A stretch of 64,000 nt of DNA from Myxococcaceae bacterium (GCA_016926755.1 JAFGNZ010000128.1:1-64000), one strand, 5' to 3'. Positions 37,734-56,309 are shown, counted from the stretch's first letter. Notes: generated from the letters alone by a model not told the origin. Numbers and translations: made by a program.

Positions 37734-38360
37734 ATGACTCCTCAAGAGCGCGAAGAGCTGGAGCGCGAGGTCCGCCGCCTGTGCGCGCAGGGTGAGCACG
37801 CCCGCGCCGCCGAGACGGCCATCCGCGGGTACGGCCCCGAGATCCTGGGGGTCCTCGTCGCCACGCACCGGGAGGAGGAGACCGCGGACGAGATCTTCGC
37901 CCAGTGGAGCGAGCGGCTCTGGCGAGGGATGGGCGGCTTCACCTGGTCCTGCGCGCTGCGCACGTGGGCGCACACCCTGGCGCGCAACGCCTCGATCAGC
38001 TTCCAGCGGCACGAGCGTTACAGGGGGCGGCTGCACCCGCCCATGCCGGGCTCGGAGGCGCTCTCTCGGATTGCCGAGAAGGTGCGCACGGAGACGCGGC
38101 CCTACCTGCGCACGGAGGCCAAGAGCAAGCTGGCCGCGCTGCGCGACAGCCTGCCCCCGGAGGACCGGACGCTCCTGGTGCTGCGCATCGACAAGGGCCT
38201 GGAGTGGAAGGATCTGGCGCGGGTGATGCTCGGCGAGGAGGCCGAGCTCTCCGAGGCGCAGCTCACCAAGGAGTCCCAGCGGCTGCGCAAGCGCTTCCAG
38301 CTCCTCAAGGATCGGCTGGTGGAGCAGGGCCGCCGCGAAGGCCTGTTCTCCCAGGAGTGA
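37734..38360 (+). CDS. ECF-type RNA polymerase sigma factor
   Basis: 208 residues with sigma regions 2 and 4 only. Region 2 is about 30-95 (GYGPEILGVLVATHREEETA, then FAQWSERLWRGMGGFTWSCA and LRTWAHTLARNASISFQRHE). Region 4 is about 140-200 (LPPEDRTLLVLRIDKGLEWK, then the helix-turn-helix ending QRLRKRFQLLKDRLVEQ). Region 2 has been stretched and the usual ..DA.D..Q..F is replaced by ETADEIFAQWSERL. It would direct RNA polymerase to a small regulon. No anti-sigma factor with a membrane helix follows; the two upstream genes are the only likely partners. Confidence 0.85.
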   Translation: MTPQEREELEREVRRLCAQGEHARAAETAIRGYGPEILGVLVATHREEETADEIFAQWSERLWRGMGGFTWSCALRTWAHTLARNASISFQRHERYRGRLHPPMPGSEALSRIAEKVRTETRPYLRTEAKSKLAALRDSLPPEDRTLLVLRIDKGLEWKDLARVMLGEEAELSEAQLTKESQRLRKRFQLLKDRLVEQGRREGLFSQE

Positions 38361-38394
38361 GTCCTCAGCTGTTATTGATTGTTATCAGCCCCTC

Positions 38395-38417
38395 GGTGTG
38401 CTGCGCACCTTTGTGTT
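38395..38417 (+). terminator. Possible terminator after the sigma-factor unit
   Basis: GGTGTG CTG CGCACC (38395-38409), with one G-T pair, followed by TTTGTGTT. It lies about 35 bases after the sigma-factor stop and well upstream of the prenyltransferase gene, so it could separate the two units. Stem short; by eye only. Confidence 0.35.
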
Positions 38418-38467
38418 CATTGCTGGAATTGTCGCACGCACCGTTGGCCTCATGACACACCACTGGT

Positions 38468-38487
38468 GAGCCTCGGCAACGAGGCTC
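38468..38487 (+). other. Perfect 8-base hairpin with a GCAA tetraloop
   Basis: GAGCCTCG GCAA CGAGGCTC. The loop is a GNRA tetraloop, a feature of folded RNA. No T run follows, so it is not a plain terminator. It sits 111 bases upstream of the prenyltransferase start, within a comparatively AT-rich 237-base gap that also contains GTAACATAAT (38541-38550) with a -10-like CATAAT, but no matching -35. Confidence 0.45.
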
Positions 38488-38597
38488 CTTGTCGGGCCAC
38501 ACTACCCATCAGCTCCCCTAGACTTCGCCCAACACATGAGGTAACATAATTTTCCATCCACAACGTCACTCCGTGCTCTCTGAAAGGAAATCAAACA

Positions 38598-40364
38598 GTG
38601 GAAATGCTCAGGGACAGGGAAGTCGAACGCTTGGCAGATGTCTCACGTGCGCTGGGGTTCGATGAGGCTGTAACGCGGTCAATGAAACAGGTCTTCCTGG
38701 CGTTGTCAGAGAGCTGGGACGCGCTCCCGGCGGGTGCCACTCCGCCATGGCCCTCGGACGTGTGTGATGACCACTCGCCCTATGAGGTCTCCGTGGCGCT
38801 CGACGAGCGGGGGCCTCAGCTGCGCGTGCTGGTAGAGCCCATGGATGCGCCGCCCTCGCTCTCCGCCAACCTCGCGGCGAGCATGCGCCTGCACAAGAAG
38901 CTCGAGCAGAACCTCGTCCAGAACCTCGTCGTCGACCTCCGCCGGCTGCGCGCGCTGGAGGACCTGCTGCTGCCGCCGGAGATCAAAGGCCGGTTCGCGG
39001 CCTGGTACGCGGCGGCGTTCGACCGGGAGCGGGCGCCGAGCCTCAAGGGGTACTTCAACCTCGGGGTGCAAGGCCCGGCGCGCGCGCCGCAGATCGCCGA
39101 GGAGGCGCTGCACCGGCTCGGCTTCCACAAGGCCTGGCCTACCATGGCCAGGATCCTGGGGCGCCGGGAAGTGGGCGCCGAGGAGCTCGTCTACTTCGCG
39201 CTCGACCTGGCTCCTGGCGAAGGCGCGCGGGCGAAGCTCTACTTCCGCCATCACTCCCCGACCGCGGCCTTCCTCGACGAGGTGGCCTCGGTGGCGCGCT
39301 ACCACCAGCCGGGATTCGTCGCCGAGTTCTGCCGCAAGCTCTCCGGCGGCGGGGAGGGGCCCTACACCTCCAAGGGGCCCGTGACATGCTTCAGCTTCAC
39401 GGATCCGTCCGATGCGCGTCCCACGGCCGCGACGGCCTACTTCCCCCTGTCCCACCATGCGCGCGACGATGCGGAGGCCCGGGAGCGGATCACCCACTAC
39501 CTCCAAGCTCAAGGTCTGGACACCACGCCCTATCTGAGGACGCTCGAGGCACTTGCCCGTCGCCCCTTGGAGGCCGGCACGGGCATGCACACCTATGCCG
39601 CGGTGCGGTGGCAGGGCAAGCCCCGGGTGACCGTCTACTTCTCACCGGAGATCTATGGGACGCAGCCGCGGCTCGAGACCCACGTGGCGGAGGGGACGCG
39701 CCCGGCGACGGCCATCGTCGACTACTTCGAGGAGCACTCCGTCGCGGACCACCCCTTCTTCGCGAGGATGCGCCGTGAGCCGGTGCGCCTCGAGGTGCTG
39801 GCTCGCATCCTGGCCAACTTCCGCGTGGGCATCACCCGGGAGTTCCCGCGTCGGCTGGCCTGGCTCACCGCCCGAGCCCCGGATGACGCCATCCGCTGCG
39901 TGCTGGCGAAGCAGCTCAATGATGAGATGGGGGATGGCGACTTCAAGCGCGCCCACCGCGGGATGTTCGAGCGGATGTTCGGGGTGCTCACGCCCTGGGC
40001 TCCGCAGGAGACGGACGAGGTGCTCGCGCCGGGCCGCGCGCTCGGCGAGGTGCTGGAGCGCTGCTACGTGACAGCCGAGCCGTACGAAGGGGTGGGCGCC
40101 AGCCTGGTGGTCGAGGTCTACGGCAAGCAGGTGGACTCGTACATCGCGGACCAGTTCCGCCGCCAGGACCAGATTCCCCCCTCGAAGCTCGACTGGCTGC
40201 ACCTCCATGAGAACCTGGAGGTGGAGCACGCGAGCGAGTCCCTGGACGTCGCGCGCCTCATCCCCCCCGGCCCGGCCACTGAAGCCGCCTGGAGAGGGGC
40301 CAAGGCAGTCGCCACCGCGTCGCGCACCTTCTTCGACACGCTGTACCGCCAGTGCTACCTGTGA
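38598..40364 (+). CDS. Fusion: ABBA/DMATS-type prenyltransferase plus haem-oxygenase-like oxidase
   Basis: 588 residues from the GTG at 38598 (AAAGGAAA about ten bases upstream). Residues 20-357 match aromatic prenyltransferases of the DMATS type, which transfer a prenyl group from its diphosphate to an indole or other aromatic: CDDHSPYEVSVAL with Glu63, diphosphate-binding Arg76 (LRVLVEP), and the strand motifs LKGYFNLG (150-152), AKLYFRHH (213-215) and RVTVYFSPEIYG (343-347). Residues 370-588 match the iron-containing redox enzyme family of the haem-oxygenase-like di-iron oxidases: candidate ligands are Glu443 and His453 in NDEMGDGDFKRAH, Glu506, and Glu541/His544 with neighbours in HLHENLEVEH. 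The substrate is unknown. Probably a tailoring enzyme that prenylates and then oxidises a small molecule. Confidence 0.85.
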   Translation: MEMLRDREVERLADVSRALGFDEAVTRSMKQVFLALSESWDALPAGATPPWPSDVCDDHSPYEVSVALDERGPQLRVLVEPMDAPPSLSANLAASMRLHKKLEQNLVQNLVVDLRRLRALEDLLLPPEIKGRFAAWYAAAFDRERAPSLKGYFNLGVQGPARAPQIAEEALHRLGFHKAWPTMARILGRREVGAEELVYFALDLAPGEGARAKLYFRHHSPTAAFLDEVASVARYHQPGFVAEFCRKLSGGGEGPYTSKGPVTCFSFTDPSDARPTAATAYFPLSHHARDDAEARERITHYLQAQGLDTTPYLRTLEALARRPLEAGTGMHTYAAVRWQGKPRVTVYFSPEIYGTQPRLETHVAEGTRPATAIVDYFEEHSVADHPFFARMRREPVRLEVLARILANFRVGITREFPRRLAWLTARAPDDAIRCVLAKQLNDEMGDGDFKRAHRGMFERMFGVLTPWAPQETDEVLAPGRALGEVLERCYVTAEPYEGVGASLVVEVYGKQVDSYIADQFRRQDQIPPSKLDWLHLHENLEVEHASESLDVARLIPPGPATEAAWRGAKAVATASRTFFDTLYRQCYL

Positions 40365-41428
40365 TCGACCTTCGCGGCCAACCGGTGCCGTGCACGGCGG
40401 CCACCCTCCAGCTCCTGACCTGCGCGCCGCTGCTGGGCTCGGTGCTCGGCGCGGCGCTGGACGTTCAGCTCTTTGATCATCTGGCGGCACGTCCGCTCGG
40501 GGCCGAGGAGCTGGCCGCCCGAGCGGGCCTCTCCGTGGAGGGCACGCGGCGCCTCCTCACGGCGCTCGTGGCGCTCGGGCTCATCGAACAGCTGGAGGGC
40601 CCGCGCTTCCGCAACGGTGCCCTGGCCGCGGCGGCGCTCACCCGTGAGGGGGAGGACTCGCTCGTGCCACTCCTCCTCCACCAGCGCCGCCACGTTGACT
40701 CGCTCTTCGCGCACCTGGGCCAGGCGGTGCGTACGGGCCAGACGCAGTTGGAGCACTGGCCCTTCGTCGACCCCTCGCGCCCCGCCGGGGACCCTTACAC
40801 GGAGCTGGCCCGGCGCCCCGAAGAATATGCGCTCCTCATGCGAGCCATGGACATCGCCAGTCGTGGGGTGGGGCGGCTCCTCGCGGAGCAGGTCGACTTC
40901 ACCCAGGTCCGCCGGCTCGTGGACCTCGGCGGGGGTGGAGGCCAGATGGCCCTGGAGCTGGCGCAGGCGGTGCCACATCTGTCCATCGAGCTCGTCGACA
41001 CGCCCCCCGCGCGGGCCTACGCCTCCGAGCGCATTGCGCGCGCCGGGCTGGCCGGGCGCATCCGCTGCACGACGGCGGACCTGCGCTCGGAGCTGGCTGG
41101 CACCCTGGAGCCGGCTGACGTCATCCTCATGTCGGGGGTGCTGAGTGACTTCGTGGCAGCGGAGCGCGCGCGCATCCTCGCACGGGTCGTCTCTCTGCTG
41201 CGCCCGGGGGGCCTGCTGCTCATCAGTGAGACGCTGTTCCGCTCCGAGCGCAAGGGGCCGTTGCTGCCTGCGCTCCTGTCGCTGTTCATGCTGCTCAGCA
41301 CGGGGGGCGACAACTTCACCCCGGAGGAGATGAAGGAGATGCTCCTCGCGGCAGGCCTGGTGGACATCCGCTTCTTCTTCAACGGAGAGCGCGGCCTGCG
41401 AGATCTGACCGTGGCCCAGCGCCCGTAA
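40361..41428 (+). CDS. SAM-dependent O-methyltransferase (COMT-type)
   Basis: 355 residues. The start chosen is the GTG at 40361, which overlaps the stop of the prenyltransferase gene as GTGA; a GTG at 40352 is the alternative. The N-terminal winged helix (about 25-95: LLGSVLGAALDVQLFDHLAA, LAARAGLSVEGTRRLLTALV) is the dimerisation domain typical of plant-like COMT and polyketide O-methyltransferases. The SAM site is VDLGGGGGQMALELAQAVP (187-205), with the acidic loop ELVDTPPA and the post-motif PGGLLLISETLF. It should methylate a hydroxyl (or amine) of the product made by the upstream fusion enzyme. Coupled translation indicates one pathway. No polyketide or peptide synthetase is in the window. 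Confidence 0.88.
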   Translation: MIDLRGQPVPCTAATLQLLTCAPLLGSVLGAALDVQLFDHLAARPLGAEELAARAGLSVEGTRRLLTALVALGLIEQLEGPRFRNGALAAAALTREGEDSLVPLLLHQRRHVDSLFAHLGQAVRTGQTQLEHWPFVDPSRPAGDPYTELARRPEEYALLMRAMDIASRGVGRLLAEQVDFTQVRRLVDLGGGGGQMALELAQAVPHLSIELVDTPPARAYASERIARAGLAGRIRCTTADLRSELAGTLEPADVILMSGVLSDFVAAERARILARVVSLLRPGGLLLISETLFRSERKGPLLPALLSLFMLLSTGGDNFTPEEMKEMLLAAGLVDIRFFFNGERGLRDLTVAQRP

Positions 41429-50689: not shown

Positions 50690-51847
50690 ATGGCACAAGT
50701 GAAGATGCAGTCGGCTCGAACCACTGAGAAGGAGCCGAATGCGGCCGCGGAGGACCTGATGAAGCAGCTGGGGGGCACCACCCCCAAGCTGGTGCTGATG
50801 TTCGCCTCGTATGATCGCGATCAGCTGGCGCTCAACCGCGCCGTGCGCGAGCGGCTGCCCAAGGGCACCCGCCTGGTGGGCGCCACCACCGCGGGAGAGC
50901 TGGACAACAACGGCATCTACTCCGGCTCCGTGGTGCTGGGCGCCCTCTACGGCGACTTTGACGTGGGGCTGGGCCTGGGCACCGGCCTGACCGCTGACGC
51001 CGTGGCCGCCGGCGCCAGCGCCATCAAGAAGGCGTGCGACGACCTGGGCGTGCGCCAGTCGGATCTGGATCCGCGCAAGTACGTGGGCCTCGTGATCGAC
51101 GACGGCCTGCGCTACAAGAAGGAAGAGCTGCTGCTGGGCATCCTCGAGAAGAACCAGACGCTGGTGCTCGTGGGCGGCGGCGCCTGCGCCACCGAGAACC
51201 CGGAGATGAAGACCGCCGTCCTCCACGTGGATGGCGAGGTGGCCAGCGACGCGGTGCTCGTGACCCTCTTCCGCACCAACGCCCCCTTCGCCGCGCTGCG
51301 CTCACACTGGTACCTCCCCACCGGCGAGCGGCTCACCATCACCAAGGTGGACGAGACGCACACGCGCGCCCTGGAGATCGACGGCCAGCCGGCCGCCCTG
51401 CGCTACGCCGAGCTGCTCGGGTGCCGGCCGGACGAGCTGGAGTTCATCAAGCCCAAGGGCTTCGCCGTGCGCCCGACCGCCCTCCGGGTGGGCCGCGAGT
51501 ACTTCATCCGCAGCGCCTGGAAGCCCCTCGAGGACAACTCCATCCTCTTCGCCAACCTCCTGGAGGAGAACTCCGAGCTGGAGCTGATGAAGATCGGCGA
51601 CATGGCCGGGATGACCAAGGCCTTCTTCGTCGAGGAGCTCCCCAAGCGAGTGCAGAACCCCCAGGCCACCCTGTTGTTTCACTGCAGCGGCCGCGCGGCG
51701 TTCGCGACTGCCACGGGCAAGCTGGAGGAGCTGGCCCAGACCTTGCGCTTCGCGCCCATGGCGGCTGGAATGAATGTGCACTTCGAGATCTACTCGGGGT
51801 TCCACATCAACACCACGCTGACCGTGCTGGCGTTCGGATCCAACTAG
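50690..51847 (+). CDS. FIST-domain sensor protein
   Basis: 385 residues with the two-part FIST layout. The N-terminal FIST domain (about 20-210) has LVLMFASYDRDQLALNRAVR, GATTAGELDNNGIYSGSVVLG and LGLGTGLTADAVAAGASAIK; the C-terminal domain runs from about 220 (DETHTRALEIDGQPAALRYA, then the end HFEIYSGFHINTTLTVLAFG). FIST is a ligand-binding module found beside histidine kinases in bacteria, proposed to sense small molecules such as amino acids. It starts 27 bases after the cytochrome gene and its TAG stop touches the ATG of the hybrid kinase (no gap), so sensor and kinase are made together. Confidence 0.9.
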   Translation: MAQVKMQSARTTEKEPNAAAEDLMKQLGGTTPKLVLMFASYDRDQLALNRAVRERLPKGTRLVGATTAGELDNNGIYSGSVVLGALYGDFDVGLGLGTGLTADAVAAGASAIKKACDDLGVRQSDLDPRKYVGLVIDDGLRYKKEELLLGILEKNQTLVLVGGGACATENPEMKTAVLHVDGEVASDAVLVTLFRTNAPFAALRSHWYLPTGERLTITKVDETHTRALEIDGQPAALRYAELLGCRPDELEFIKPKGFAVRPTALRVGREYFIRSAWKPLEDNSILFANLLEENSELELMKIGDMAGMTKAFFVEELPKRVQNPQATLLFHCSGRAAFATATGKLEELAQTLRFAPMAAGMNVHFEIYSGFHINTTLTVLAFGSN

Positions 51848-54766
51848 ATGAGCCCCCACCCCGCTTCCTCCACCGAGAGCACTGGCCACCGCATCCTCCT
51901 CATCACCAGCGAGCGCGAGACCGAGCAGGTCACCAACGCACTGCGCCGGGTCTCGCCCCAGGCGACCACGGAGCGCATCACGAGCGCCGAGGCGCTCGCC
52001 GAGGCCCTGGGCAAGCCGTGGGTGCTGGCGGTGGTCGGCATTGAGCAACAGGCGCTGCCGCTGGCGGCGATCCAGTCGGCGTGGCAGGCGCGGGGCAGCG
52101 CCACGCCCTTCCTCGTGCTGTCGCGCCAGTGGAGCGACGAGACGCTGGCGGCGGCCATGCAGGCCGGGGCCAGTGACTACCTCACCGAGGAGCAGCTGGG
52201 GCGGCTGGGGCTGCTGCTCCACCGCGAGCAGCAGGTCCGCGCCGAGCAGGGCCGGGAGCTGCGCCAGGCCAACTGGCTGCTCAACAACATCATCGACGGC
52301 CTGCCCTTCATCCTCTTCGTGAAGGACGCCAAGGAGCTGCGGCTCCAGGTGGTGAACAAGCTGCTCGCCGACTCCTTCCAGGTCACCAAGGAGTGGCTGC
52401 TCGGCAAGCGGGATCACGACTACTTCCCTCCGGAGCAGGCCACCGCGTTCATCGCGGATGATCGCGAGATCATCGCCACCCGGCGCGTCAGGCAGTTCGA
52501 GGAGGTGGCGCGCGTCGTCAATGAGGATCGCCTGTTCTGCACCCGGAAGATCCCCCTCACGGACGAGACCGGCGAGGTCCACTACGTGATGGGCGTCACC
52601 GAGGACATCACCGAGCGCCGGCAGAACGAGGAGCGGCTGCGCGCGTCCAAGGCGGAGCTGGAGGCGGCCAACAAGAAGCTGGCCGAGAGCATCGAGGAGG
52701 TCAAGCGCACCAAGTCCATCTCCGCCCGCTCGCTGGCCAGCTACCAGCAGCGCGCGCTGCAGATGGAGATCATCCGCCAGCAGAACGAGGACCTGGACCG
52801 GCTGGCCACGGAGCTGGCCATCGCCAAGCGCAACGAGGAGGAGCGCGCGCGCGAGGCGGAGGCCGCCGCCCGGCTCAAGAGCGAGTTCCTGGCCAACTTC
52901 AGCCATGAGATCCGCACCCCGCTCAACGGCATCATCGGCTACTGCGATCTGCTGATGCGCGAGGAGGGCAGCCGGCTCACCGCGCACGGCCGCAGGGACT
53001 TGAACGTCGTCAAGACGAACGCCAAGACGCTGCTGGCGCTCATCAACGACATCCTGGATCTGTCGAAGATCGAGGCGGGCCGGGTGGAGGTGGTGAGCGA
53101 GCGCGTGGACGTGCAGGAGCTGGCCGAGGAGTGCCTGGCCACGGTGCGCGAGTACCTCAAGGGCCGGGACGTCGCGCTCACGCTGAACATCGAGGAGCCG
53201 GCGCGCTACCTGAACACGGACGCGCTGAAGCTGCGGCAGATCATGCTCAACCTCTTGAGCAACGCCGCCAAGTTCACCGAGTCCGGCGAGGTGGCGCTGG
53301 GGGCGAGGGCCGAGGGCAACGAGATGGTCATGACGGTGGAGGACACCGGCGTGGGCATCCCGAGCGATCAGCTGCCCTTCATCTTCGAGAAGTTCCGCCA
53401 GGTGGACGGCTCCACCACGCGCAAGGTGGGCGGCACGGGCCTGGGGCTGGCCATCGTCCGCGAGCTGAGCAAGGTGCTGGGCGGCAACGTCAGCGTCACC
53501 AGCGTGCTGGGCCGCGGCACCACCTTCACGGTGCGCCTTGCGGGCGTGCTGGAGAACGAGGCGCCGGCCGCGGTCGCGCAGCAGCAGGCGCAGCACGTCG
53601 CGGTGGAGGAGGTGGCGGCGAAGCTGGCGCCCCTGGCGGCCGGCAGCACGGTGCTGGTGGTGGATGATGATCTGCTCATGCAGCAGCTGGTGCTGGGCCA
53701 GCTGGAGCCCGCCGGCTTCAAGGTGGTGCCCGCCGAGGACGGGGTGAACGCCCTGCGGCTGGCGCGCGAGCTCAAGCCCCAGGCCATCCTCCTGGACATC
53801 CACCTGCCCCGGCTGGACGGCTGGTCCGTGCTCAGCCAGCTCAAGAGCGAGCCGACGCTGTCCCACATCCCCGTCATCCTCGTCTCCGTGGAGGAGCAGC
53901 GCGCGCGGGGCTTCTCGCTGGGCGCGTGCGAGTACCTGGTCAAGCCGGTGGAGCCGGACCGGCTGGTGGAGGTGGTGACGCGCACCCTGGGCACCCAGGC
54001 CCTGGCCAGCGGCGAGGTGCTGGTGGTGGACGACGACGCCGGCACGCGCGAGCTCGTCAGCCGCAGCCTGCGCCGCGCCGGCTTCTCCACCTCCGAGGCC
54101 CACAGCGGCGAGGACGCGCTGCTCAAGGCGCGCGTCTCCCCGCCCATCCTGGTGGTGCTGGACCTGATGATGCCCAACCTCGACGGCTTCGAGGTGCTGC
54201 GGCGCCTGCGCTCGGAGAACCTCCACATGCCCGTGGTGGTGCTCACCGGCAAGGACCTCACCGCCGAGGAGCAGCGCACCCTGCGCGACGGCCTGATCGC
54301 CTTCGTGCGCAAGGGCGGCCACGCGATCGACGACGTCATCGGCCAGGCGAAGACCCTGCTGCTCCAGAAGCGCGCGGCCGCCAGCAGCCGCCCGCCTCGC
54401 ATCCTCTACGTGGAGGACAACCCCCAGAACCGCGACATCGTCCGGCGCTACCTCGGCAACAACTACGAGCTGCTGGAGGCCGAGGATGGTGAGCACGGGC
54501 TGGAGCGCGCCCAGCGCGACACGCCGGACCTGGTGTTGATGGACCTGTCCCTGCCGCGCCTGGATGGCTGGGAGGCCACCCGGCGCCTGCGCGCGCTGCC
54601 GGCCGCCGTCGCCACGGTCCCCGTCATCGCCGTCACCGCCCACGCCGGCCGCGAGTACCAGGACAAGGCCCTGGCCGCCGGCTGCGACGCCTACCTGACC
54701 AAGCCCCTCGACCGCGATCAGCTCCTGGACACCATCCGCAAGCACCTGGGGAAGAGCCATGGCTGA
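51848..54766 (+). CDS. Hybrid histidine kinase: pseudo-receiver, PAS, kinase and three receivers
   Basis: 972 residues, no membrane segment. The order is an N-terminal receiver-like fold (about 15-130) lacking the acceptor Asp ([10 protein letters not shown]), a PAS domain (about 140-265, ending [16 protein letters not shown]), the histidine motif [20 protein letters not shown], the N box [16 protein letters not shown], and [20 protein letters not shown] with [14 protein letters not shown]. Three receivers follow: [16 protein letters not shown] near 640, [16 protein letters not shown] near 770, and [16 protein letters not shown] near 895. All three have the Asp, so it can act as a phosphorelay hub. 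It overlaps the next response regulator by 8 bases. The FIST protein is the likely input. Confidence 0.94.
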
Positions 54767-55154
54767 AGGGAAGCTCCGCGTCCTGGTCGTGGATGACGAC
54801 CCGGACCTCCTGGACCTGGTGGCGCGCTCGCTGCGCGCCGAGGGCTTCGAGGTGGAGACGCACTTCTCCGCGCTGGGGGTCCCCTCCCGCATCCAGGACA
54901 CCCTCCCGGATGTCGTCCTCATCGACGTGAACTTCCCCTCCCTCAAGGGGGACAAGGTCGTCTCGCTGGCGCGCTCCCAGGCGCCGGCCGGCACCAAGTT
55001 CGTCCTCTATTCGGCCTCGGATGAGTCCCAGCTGCGCTCGCTGGCCATGGCCTCGGGCGCGGACGGCTACCTCTCCAAGAACGTCCAGGGCGCCGAGCTC
55101 GCGCGGAAGCTCGAGTCCTTCCGCCACAAGCGGCCCGCGCCCGTGCCCGTCTGA
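54759..55154 (+). CDS. Single-domain response regulator (CheY-like)
   Basis: 131 residues, one receiver domain and no output. Acidic pocket VLVVDDDPDLL, acceptor Asp in VVLIDVNFPSL, the conserved Ser/Thr position in FVLYSASDESQ, and Lys in YLSKNVQGAEL. It overlaps the hybrid kinase gene by 8 bases and is followed 12 bases later by an aminotransferase-fold gene. It is a close paralogue of the regulator at 57294 (GDKVVSLARSQAPAGTKFVL against GDKVLSLARAQAPLGTKFIL). It probably takes phosphate from the kinase and acts through protein contact. Confidence 0.93.
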   Translation: MAEGKLRVLVVDDDPDLLDLVARSLRAEGFEVETHFSALGVPSRIQDTLPDVVLIDVNFPSLKGDKVVSLARSQAPAGTKFVLYSASDESQLRSLAMASGADGYLSKNVQGAELARKLESFRHKRPAPVPV

Positions 55155-55166
55155 GCGCCACCGGAC

Positions 55167-56309
55167 ATGGACACGACGCTCACGGCGGTGCGGGCCGAGT
55201 TTCCCCTGCTGGACAAGTGCACCTACCTCAACAGCAACGCCACGGGCGCGTACCCGCGCGGCATGGAGGCGGTGCTCCAGCGCTACGCGCAGACGCTGCA
55301 GAACTGGCGGGACGAGGTGTGGGAGGGCTGGTGGGCGGACTGGCTCGGCTACGCGGACGCGGTGGCCCGCTTCCTGGGCGCGCCGGCCGGCTCCGTGGCG
55401 ACGGACGCCAACCTCTCCTCGCTGCTGGGGCGGCTGGCCACCTGCTTTGACTACCAGGGTGAGCGCCGCCGCGTGGTGATGACGGAGCTGGAGTTCCCCA
55501 CCGTCCCCTTCATCTGGAGGGGCTTCGGGCGCTACGGCGCGGACGCGGTGGTGGTGCCCTCCGAGGGCGGGCGGATGGACGAGGAGCGGCTGTGCGCGGC
55601 GATTGACGAGCGCACGCTGCTGGTCAGCGTCTCCCACGCCAGCTTCGCCACCGGCGCGCTCTTGGACCTGGAGCCGGTGGTGAAGCGCGCGCGCGCGGTG
55701 GGGGCGCTGGTGGCGGTGGACGCCTACCAGTCGGTGGGCACCGTCCCCATCGACGTGGAGGCGCTGGGCGTGGACTTCCTGCTGGGGGGCGCGCACAAGT
55801 GGATGTGCGGCTCCATGGAGAGCGCCTTCCTGTACGTGCGCCCGGCGCTGCTGCCCACGCTGCGGCCGGCGGCCACCGGGTGGTTCGCCGGGGAGCAACC
55901 GCACACCTTCGAGCCAGCGCGCGACTGGGCGCCCACGGCGCGCAGGATGACGAGCGGCACGCCGGCGGTGCTGCCCGCGCAGCTCTCGCAGGTGGGGTTG
56001 GACCTGCTGGCCCGGGTGGGGATGCCCACCATCCGCGCGCACTCGCTGCGGTGCACGGCGCGGGTGATGGCGCGCGCGGACGACGCGGGCCTCACGGTGG
56101 TGACGCCGCGGCAGGAGGCGCGGCGCGGCGGCGTGGTGGCGCTGCGCTTCCCCGGGGACGCGGAGGTGACGCGCCGGCTCGTCGCCCGCGGCTTCATCTG
56201 CAGCTACCGGGGCGCGCTGCGCGTGGCGCCGCACTTCTACAACACGCTGGAGGAAGTGGACCGCTTCATGGACGCCCTGGAGGCCGAGGCTCGCGGGGAG
56301 AAGGCCTGA
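55167..56309 (+). CDS. Class V aminotransferase-fold PLP enzyme
   Basis: 380 residues of the NifS/SufS/kynureninase fold. PLP lysine in LGGAHKWMCGSMES, the Asp that holds the cofactor in VAVDAYQSVGTVPID, and the phosphate region SVATDANLSSLLGRLATCF. Family members include cysteine desulphurases, isopenicillin N epimerase and kynureninases; it lacks an obvious catalytic Cys loop, so an amine-processing or epimerase role is more likely than sulphur transfer. It is the last gene of the cytochrome/FIST/kinase run, 12 bases after the response regulator. Its substrate is unknown; in context it could make or break down the signal seen by the FIST protein. Confidence 0.88.
   Translation: MDTTLTAVRAEFPLLDKCTYLNSNATGAYPRGMEAVLQRYAQTLQNWRDEVWEGWWADWLGYADAVARFLGAPAGSVATDANLSSLLGRLATCFDYQGERRRVVMTELEFPTVPFIWRGFGRYGADAVVVPSEGGRMDEERLCAAIDERTLLVSVSHASFATGALLDLEPVVKRARAVGALVAVDAYQSVGTVPIDVEALGVDFLLGGAHKWMCGSMESAFLYVRPALLPTLRPAATGWFAGEQPHTFEPARDWAPTARRMTSGTPAVLPAQLSQVGLDLLARVGMPTIRAHSLRCTARVMARADDAGLTVVTPRQEARRGGVVALRFPGDAEVTRRLVARGFICSYRGALRVAPHFYNTLEEVDRFMDALEAEARGEKA

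Follow-up and report, generated by a model that had tools for sequence, protein, structure and literature searches.

Examining a stretch of 64,000 nucleotides from a Myxococcaceae bacterium (GCA_016926755.1 JAFGNZ010000128.1:1-64000; the whole stretch is called the window hereafter), we characterised a gene on the plus strand, at 38598-40364, which joins two enzymes in one protein: a DMATS-type aromatic prenyltransferase and a haem-oxygenase-like di-iron oxidase (HDO). The gene is a single open frame of 588 amino acids, with a GTG start and a stop codon at 40362-40364. Pfam, the structural match and invariant residues place the prenyltransferase domain at residues 1-357 (38598..39668), while the HDO domain, recognised by Pfam, its structural match and its 3H/3C ligands, comprises residues 368-588 (39699..40361); both are joined by a linker of low AlphaFold confidence (residues 357-367, 39666..39698). 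The stop codon overlaps, in the four bases GTGA, with the GTG start of an S-adenosylmethionine-dependent O-methyltransferase (OMT; PF00891 and PF08100) on the same strand (40361..41428); the longest open reading frame of the OMT begins at 40352, and the sequence of its relatives favours the GTG at 40361. Upstream of the fusion gene lies an AT-rich gap (38361..38597), presumably promoter and leader, whose 237 bp have a GC content of 52.7% against 70.7% for the window and belong to the lowest 0.3% of 237-bp stretches. A gene on the same strand (37734-38360) immediately precedes this gap and encodes a divergent sigma-70-region-2 protein, which scores just under the Pfam cut-off. No polyketide synthase or non-ribosomal peptide synthetase is present among the long open reading frames near the unit. 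An earlier, sequence-only reading of this DNA had described the frame and its coordinates, the gap, the coupled methyltransferase and the lack of such synthases in the same way, and all four descriptions hold.

Both halves belong to the families which that reading had assigned to them. In Pfam, Trp_DMAT (PF11991) matches residues 48-308 (E 1e-13, 51.9 bits, cut-off 25) and Haem_oxygenas_2 residues 412-573 (E 2e-15, 57.3 bits, cut-off 28.9), each above the curated cut-off. TIGR03429 matches the DMATS half at E 2e-32, yet its 112.8 bits stay below the NCBI cut-off of 163.85; in a phmmer search against solved structures, residues 44-361 match a DMATS-type prenyltransferase (E 3.5e-47). An AlphaFold2 model built from ten fusion sequences (predicted local distance difference test, pLDDT, 88.6; predicted template-modelling score, pTM, 0.88) has its sole weak linker at residues 357-365 (pLDDT <50) and is confident in the region of the six predicted metal ligands. 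The best structural match of residues 1-360 is the 6-dimethylallyltryptophan synthase 6zrx (Z 44.4), followed by PriB, CymD and IptA, and against bacterial prenyltransferases acting on indole or tryptophan the fold as a whole scores Z 38-44. Residues 368-588 adopt the seven-helix HDO fold, as seen in HrmI (Z 24.3), CADD (Z 22.5) and BesC (Z 20.1); in a search with a profile of ten HDO domains from such fusions, the best sequence matches are likewise BesC (E 1e-6), CADD, HrmI and the p-aminobenzoate synthase 9pj4.

The active-site residues are intact in both halves. Across the ten ligand-complete fusions introduced below, E63, R76, K150, Y152, R211, K213, Y215 and Y347 of the DMATS half are invariant, with roles that we take to be those generally known for FgaPT2-type enzymes; the KxY-type motifs noticed earlier can be assigned to K150/Y152 and K213/Y215. 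Equally invariant (10/10) are the predicted metal ligands E443, H453, E506, H537, E541 and H544, which align with those of CADD, HrmI and BesC and include all three residues (His453, Glu506, His544) that had been proposed as a metal site. The HDO half thus has the 3H/3C ligand set with the HX3EX2H motif on core helix 3, the features by which the HDO family is defined (PMC13108848, PMC11611611), and is devoid of a conserved extra glutamate.

The sequence-only reading is incomplete in that the fusion does not stand alone: it recurs in at least 11 genes from two phyla, Myxococcota and one cyanobacterium. Ten of these are full-length and ligand-complete, namely the window gene and those at loci L030 (genome G066), L031 (G063), L033 (G097), L048 (the cyanobacterium, Chamaesiphon), L049, L050 (Kofleriaceae), L051 (Polyangiaceae), L103 and L104 (both G202), the other nine being 34-72% identical to the window fusion. 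In the eleventh (L051:5624-7501) the HDO half is degenerate and its ligand motifs are lost. A sequencing error joining two frames, which the sequence-only reading had considered, or any other frame or assembly artefact is ruled out by these nine further ligand-complete fusions in other genomes, plus the one with the degenerate oxidase half. The search of 386 cyanobacteria gave a single fusion, that of 396 actinomycete genomes none, and that of plasmid records none either.

By genus, the window's genome groups with G100 and G097, and G064 with G063 and G066. In a DMATS tree the window gene clusters with L030, L031 and L032 (100/100), deeper branches lacking resolution; L032, which belongs to a congener and lies inside this clade, has lost its HDO half. 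A single origin of the fusion (one DMATS-HDO1 clade) was weakly rejected by the approximately unbiased test, with a p of 0.035 that refers to a group picked after viewing the tree and to a poorly resolved backbone. Compared with L030, the HDO half (84% identity) is more similar than the DMATS half (66%). The ratios of non-synonymous to synonymous substitution rates in this pair are about 0.46 for DMATS, 0.26 for HDO and 0.28 for OMT, because of which both the fusion gene and the OMT gene look to be under purifying selection.

The most constant neighbour of the fusion is a kynureninase-like gene (KYN), located directly downstream in eight of the ten ligand-complete loci and missing at that position in the window, while an OMT gene was found in four of the ten. 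The proposal that fusion and OMT form the unit therefore stands as regards the coupling of the methyltransferase and has to be revised as regards the core partner, which is KYN. At L030 and L031 the KYN gene (381 aa) sits between the fusion and the OMT; the same succession of KYN and OMT occurs at L051, where the OMT has 41% identity. KYN overlaps with the fusion by 4 bp (ATGA/GTGA) in five of six loci checked (L030, L031, L049, L050, L051). In the window, an overlap of the GTGA type links the fusion straight to the OMT, as though KYN had been excised, and elsewhere in the window's genome no KYN orthologue of more than 38% identity was found. Across families and phyla the KYN copies are 47-59% identical to that of L030, the L031 copy being near-identical. 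Their closest solved structure is the kynureninase 1qz9 (E 5e-35), they carry the kynureninase C-terminal domain KYNU_C (PF22580; 47.1 bits, cut-off 27), and the lysine binding pyridoxal phosphate (PLP) as well as the arginines R350/R356 are conserved.

Of the OMT, both domains score well above their Pfam cut-offs (Methyltransf_2: E 3e-26, 92.6 bits, cut-off 22.3; Dimerisation: E 2e-10, 41 bits, cut-off 25.6). Its nearest solved relatives include hydroxyindole O-methyltransferase and SibL; because enzymes for other substrates score as well, this comparison does not decide on the acceptor group.

Taking these data together, we lean with moderate confidence towards a pathway in which the fusion prenylates and oxidises tryptophan, a kynureninase-type lyase cleaves the product and the OMT methylates it, with opening of the ring as the leading chemistry. 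The DMATS half would use dimethylallyl diphosphate (or a related donor) to prenylate the indole ring of L-tryptophan, which we infer to be the first substrate because every close relative of solved structure prenylates tryptophan or indole. Tryptophan or an indole had been suggested as acceptor beforehand; the former appears likely and free indole less so, because the closest solved relatives prenylate tryptophan and because kynureninase-family PLP lyases depend on an alpha-amino acid as substrate. Prenyl-tryptophan would then pass to the C-terminal 3H/3C di-iron half, to be oxidised with O2, and a kynureninase-type PLP enzyme would cleave the oxidised alpha-amino acid: the operon-encoded KYN in the relatives and, in the window genome, probably KYNw (55167-56309), a further kynureninase-like enzyme described below. 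Last, the small aromatic product would be O-methylated by the co-translated OMT.

HDOs that oxidise substituted tryptophans are known (AetD, SktA; PMC11611611, PMC13108848). The HDO half of the fusion could open the indole ring in place of tryptophan 2,3-dioxygenase (TDO), so that the lyase would free a prenylated anthranilate-type product and alanine. That it is a non-haem counterpart of TDO, fused to the prenyltransferase supplying its prenyl-tryptophan and feeding a dedicated kynureninase, we put forward as a tentative possibility; ring-opening is favoured because it accounts for both the kynureninase-like partner and the replacement of TDO. With the N-oxygenase HrmI as best structural match (Z 24.3), one might instead think of N-oxygenation of the amino group of prenyl-tryptophan to an oxime- or nitro-type product, the HDO half replacing the flavin monooxygenase of actinomycete Type B clusters, one of which converts 5-dimethylallyl-tryptophan to 5-dimethylallylindole-3-acetonitrile by means of that enzyme (PMC3617294). 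But CADD and BesC match nearly as well, the amine that HrmI oxidises belongs to a lysine side chain, and the conserved kynureninase-type partner is left unexplained, and we hold this to be improbable.

The module which encodes KYNw lies 9-15 kb downstream of the fusion unit on the plus strand, and the sequence-only reading had not connected the two. It begins with a FIST-domain sensor protein (50690..51847), which we infer to be functionally linked to the fusion unit, and continues with a hybrid histidine kinase (51848..54766) and a response regulator (54759..55154); after this trio comes KYNw (55167..56309), which shares 37% identity with KYN from the sister operons. At L050 and L051, trio homologues (FIST 47-61%, kinase 61-63%) are found 42-144 bp from the DMATS-HDO-KYN operons, at L049 a FIST gene alone stands about 3 kb from the fusion operon before the contig ends, and the distance between trio and fusion unit is about 31 kb in G063/G066 and 9 kb in the window. 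At six checked loci (G099, G097, G100, G101, G085, G073) the order is FIST, kinase, regulator, TDO-like gene, KYNw. In the window (54759-55167) the TDO-like gene is missing, leaving a gap of 12 bases between regulator and KYNw; calculated from the listed positions, FIST and KYNw are 4.5 kb apart here versus 5.6-6.6 kb in some two dozen genomes. The single TDO match of the window genome is on another contig. At L173, too, a KYNw homologue adjoins a TDO gene. Among the six genomes with a TDO-bearing trio, G097 possesses a distant fusion at another locus (L033), and in G099 there is a DMATS without the HDO half. From its gene order, the module can be read as a tryptophan-to-anthranilate route in which the DMATS-HDO protein would stand in the place of TDO. 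As a marker specific for the fusion, the trio was ruled out, the FIST gene being present in 65 of 195 Myxococcota genomes. The joint absence of TDO and KYNw in G063/G066 was dropped as support as well, since in none of the searched genomes of that genus group does KYNw stand beside the trio, which makes the absence uninformative.

Several observations weigh against the proposed pathway and its ring-opening step. KYN reaches 89.9 bits against the NCBI kynureninase equivalog TIGR01814, below the cut-off of 246.4, for which reason we call it kynureninase-like despite its KYNU_C domain; it may be a different class-V PLP lyase rather than a true kynureninase. None of the characterised HDOs covered by the 2026 review of these enzymes (PMC13108848) opens an indole ring, nor was a formamidase gene noticed next to the operons. 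The trio with a KYN-like gene is widespread in the family without DMATS, the window genome and most other searched genomes retain TDO elsewhere, and the absence of TDO beside the window trio is a single event. Moreover, the L033 fusion has no KYN and is accompanied by a FAD (flavin adenine dinucleotide)-linked, cytokinin-dehydrogenase-like oxidase and a P450 instead. This last neighbourhood would suit an HDO half that alters the prenyl chain, say by forming a diene through desaturation, as seen in the indiacens of myxobacteria: indiacen B of Sandaracinus bears a modified isoprene unit on indole C4 (PMC4660955), and desaturations by HDOs are known from a side reaction of PolF and from MboA (PMC13108848). 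A separate FAD-linked oxidase at other DMATS loci could nevertheless do this job, KYN would be left without explanation, and oxidation of the prenyl chain seems to us very improbable.

A second, independent type of fusion bears on the substrate of the HDO half. DMATS paralogues in the genome of the window (L028, L029) and in related genomes have an N-terminal domain that matches AetD (profile E 2.7e-25) and has lost its core-helix-3 ligands; AetD is a nitrile synthase acting on dibromo-tryptophan (PMC11611611). Ligand-complete AetD-type domains are located N-terminal to DMATS at L042:2725-4518 and C-terminal to it at L034:8835-10661 and L035:9021-10847, and AetD-type HDOs are encoded as separate nearby genes at L032, L037, L041, L051 and L057. 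At L041 the ligand positions D76, H79, E140, H172, E176 and H179 are identical to the published numbering of AetD (PMC11611611); this subfamily (HDO2) has D-x2-H on core helix 1, and its profile retrieves AetD with an E of 7.5e-59. Judging from these sequences, two HDO subfamilies are joined to DMATS, the AetD-type one in both domain orders. By analogy, the AetD-type fusion supports, without being proof, prenyl-tryptophan as the substrate of the window's HDO half, and because a single prenyltransferase family has become fused to two HDO subfamilies, and in both orders, a direct hand-over of prenyl-tryptophan is suggested to be advantageous.

It could be argued from the same fusions that the window's HDO half oxidises the side chain of prenyl-tryptophan and leaves the indole intact, as AetD (nitrile) and SktA (skatole) do, with KYN acting on a side-chain-oxidised, for example beta-hydroxylated, amino acid. 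We found no tryptophan HDOs described other than AetD and SktA (PMC13108848), such chemistry is plausible in a group whose members carry AetD homologues fused to or beside DMATS, and the window HDO looks to be of the 3H/3C class, in which substrates have been seen ligating Fe1. The window HDO nonetheless lies outside the AetD subfamily, and a nitrile or skatole would deprive KYN of its amino-acid substrate; we consider side-chain oxidation rather doubtful. As an AetD homologue the window HDO was rejected, since its own profile misses AetD at E up to 1 and its helix-1 spacing is E443..H453 rather than D-x2-H.

The neighbourhoods of these other DMATS genes deserve a brief description. In the window's genome, the degenerate AetD-type-DMATS fusion of L028 (G000:C103, 3439-11788), for which the AlphaFold model was too weak (pLDDT 71, pTM 0.55), lies near a tryptophanase, a styrene-monooxygenase-like (StyA-like) enzyme and a P450, and L036 and L041 are similar; these enzyme types are reminiscent of the aetokthonotoxin pathway, with a prenyltransferase in the place of the halogenase. 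At L051:5624-8241 a DMATS with a ligand-less fused HDO half precedes a stand-alone AetD-type gene with a full ligand set, and the pattern of L041 is similar, as if the dead fused copy recruited an active free one. Small PilZ-domain genes (L028:11447-11788; L029, L032, L036, L038, L040, L041) adjoin most DMATS genes with a degenerate AetD-type domain. A protein of about 200 aa without a Pfam match is encoded near DMATS at L036:12339-12941 and has homologues at L028, L032, L041 and, weakly, L057. FAD-linked oxidases recur beside DMATS genes (L032, L033, L051, L053, L057, L058).

Compared with known systems, both halves are of known kinds and the reaction could be new. The bacterial tryptophan prenyltransferases (6-DMATS 6zrx/6zry, PriB, CymD, IptA) share the fold of residues 1-360 (Z 41-44, 30-32% identity) and the same catalytic positions; unlike the window fusion, the solved enzymes have about 340-400 residues, cover residues 1-360 only and have no oxidase domain. 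HrmI, CADD and BesC have the HDO fold in common with the window half, and these three, UndA and SznF all have 3H/3C ligands and an HX3E/DX2H-type motif on core helix 3, but none of the five is fused to a prenyltransferase; SznF, according to the 2026 review, is set apart from the other characterised HDOs by its additional cupin domain (PMC13108848). AetD and SktA act on ring-substituted L-tryptophan, whereas the window HDO is of another subfamily than AetD. As the sequence-only reading had supposed, the fusion appears to be undescribed: we found no description of a DMATS-HDO or an AetD-type-DMATS fusion in the open-access literature. About a dozen HDOs out of more than 10,000 have a known function (PMC13108848). 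Their substrates are hard to predict from sequence, and here the fusion to a tryptophan prenyltransferase hints at the substrate of this subfamily, and the gene order at the next enzyme.

Two types of DMATS cluster have been described in actinomycetes (PMC3617294): Type A contains a tryptophanase, Type B a flavin monooxygenase. Like the window unit, both pair a tryptophan prenyltransferase with one enzyme acting on prenyl-tryptophan; neither a tryptophanase nor a flavin monooxygenase lies beside the window gene, which therefore falls under neither definition. Here a di-iron oxidase in the same chain takes that role, usually accompanied, across the fusion loci, by a kynureninase-like lyase. The conserved fusion and its kynureninase-type neighbour suggest that tryptophan is turned into prenylated small molecules by a route not described so far, and the unit would represent a third way of processing prenyl-tryptophan. 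Gene pairs of TDO and kynureninase share with the fusion loci the kynureninase-like partner and the nearby FIST, kinase and regulator genes, but they have a haem dioxygenase where the fusion loci have a di-iron oxidase that shares its chain with a prenyltransferase, possibly a non-haem substitute for the textbook enzyme.

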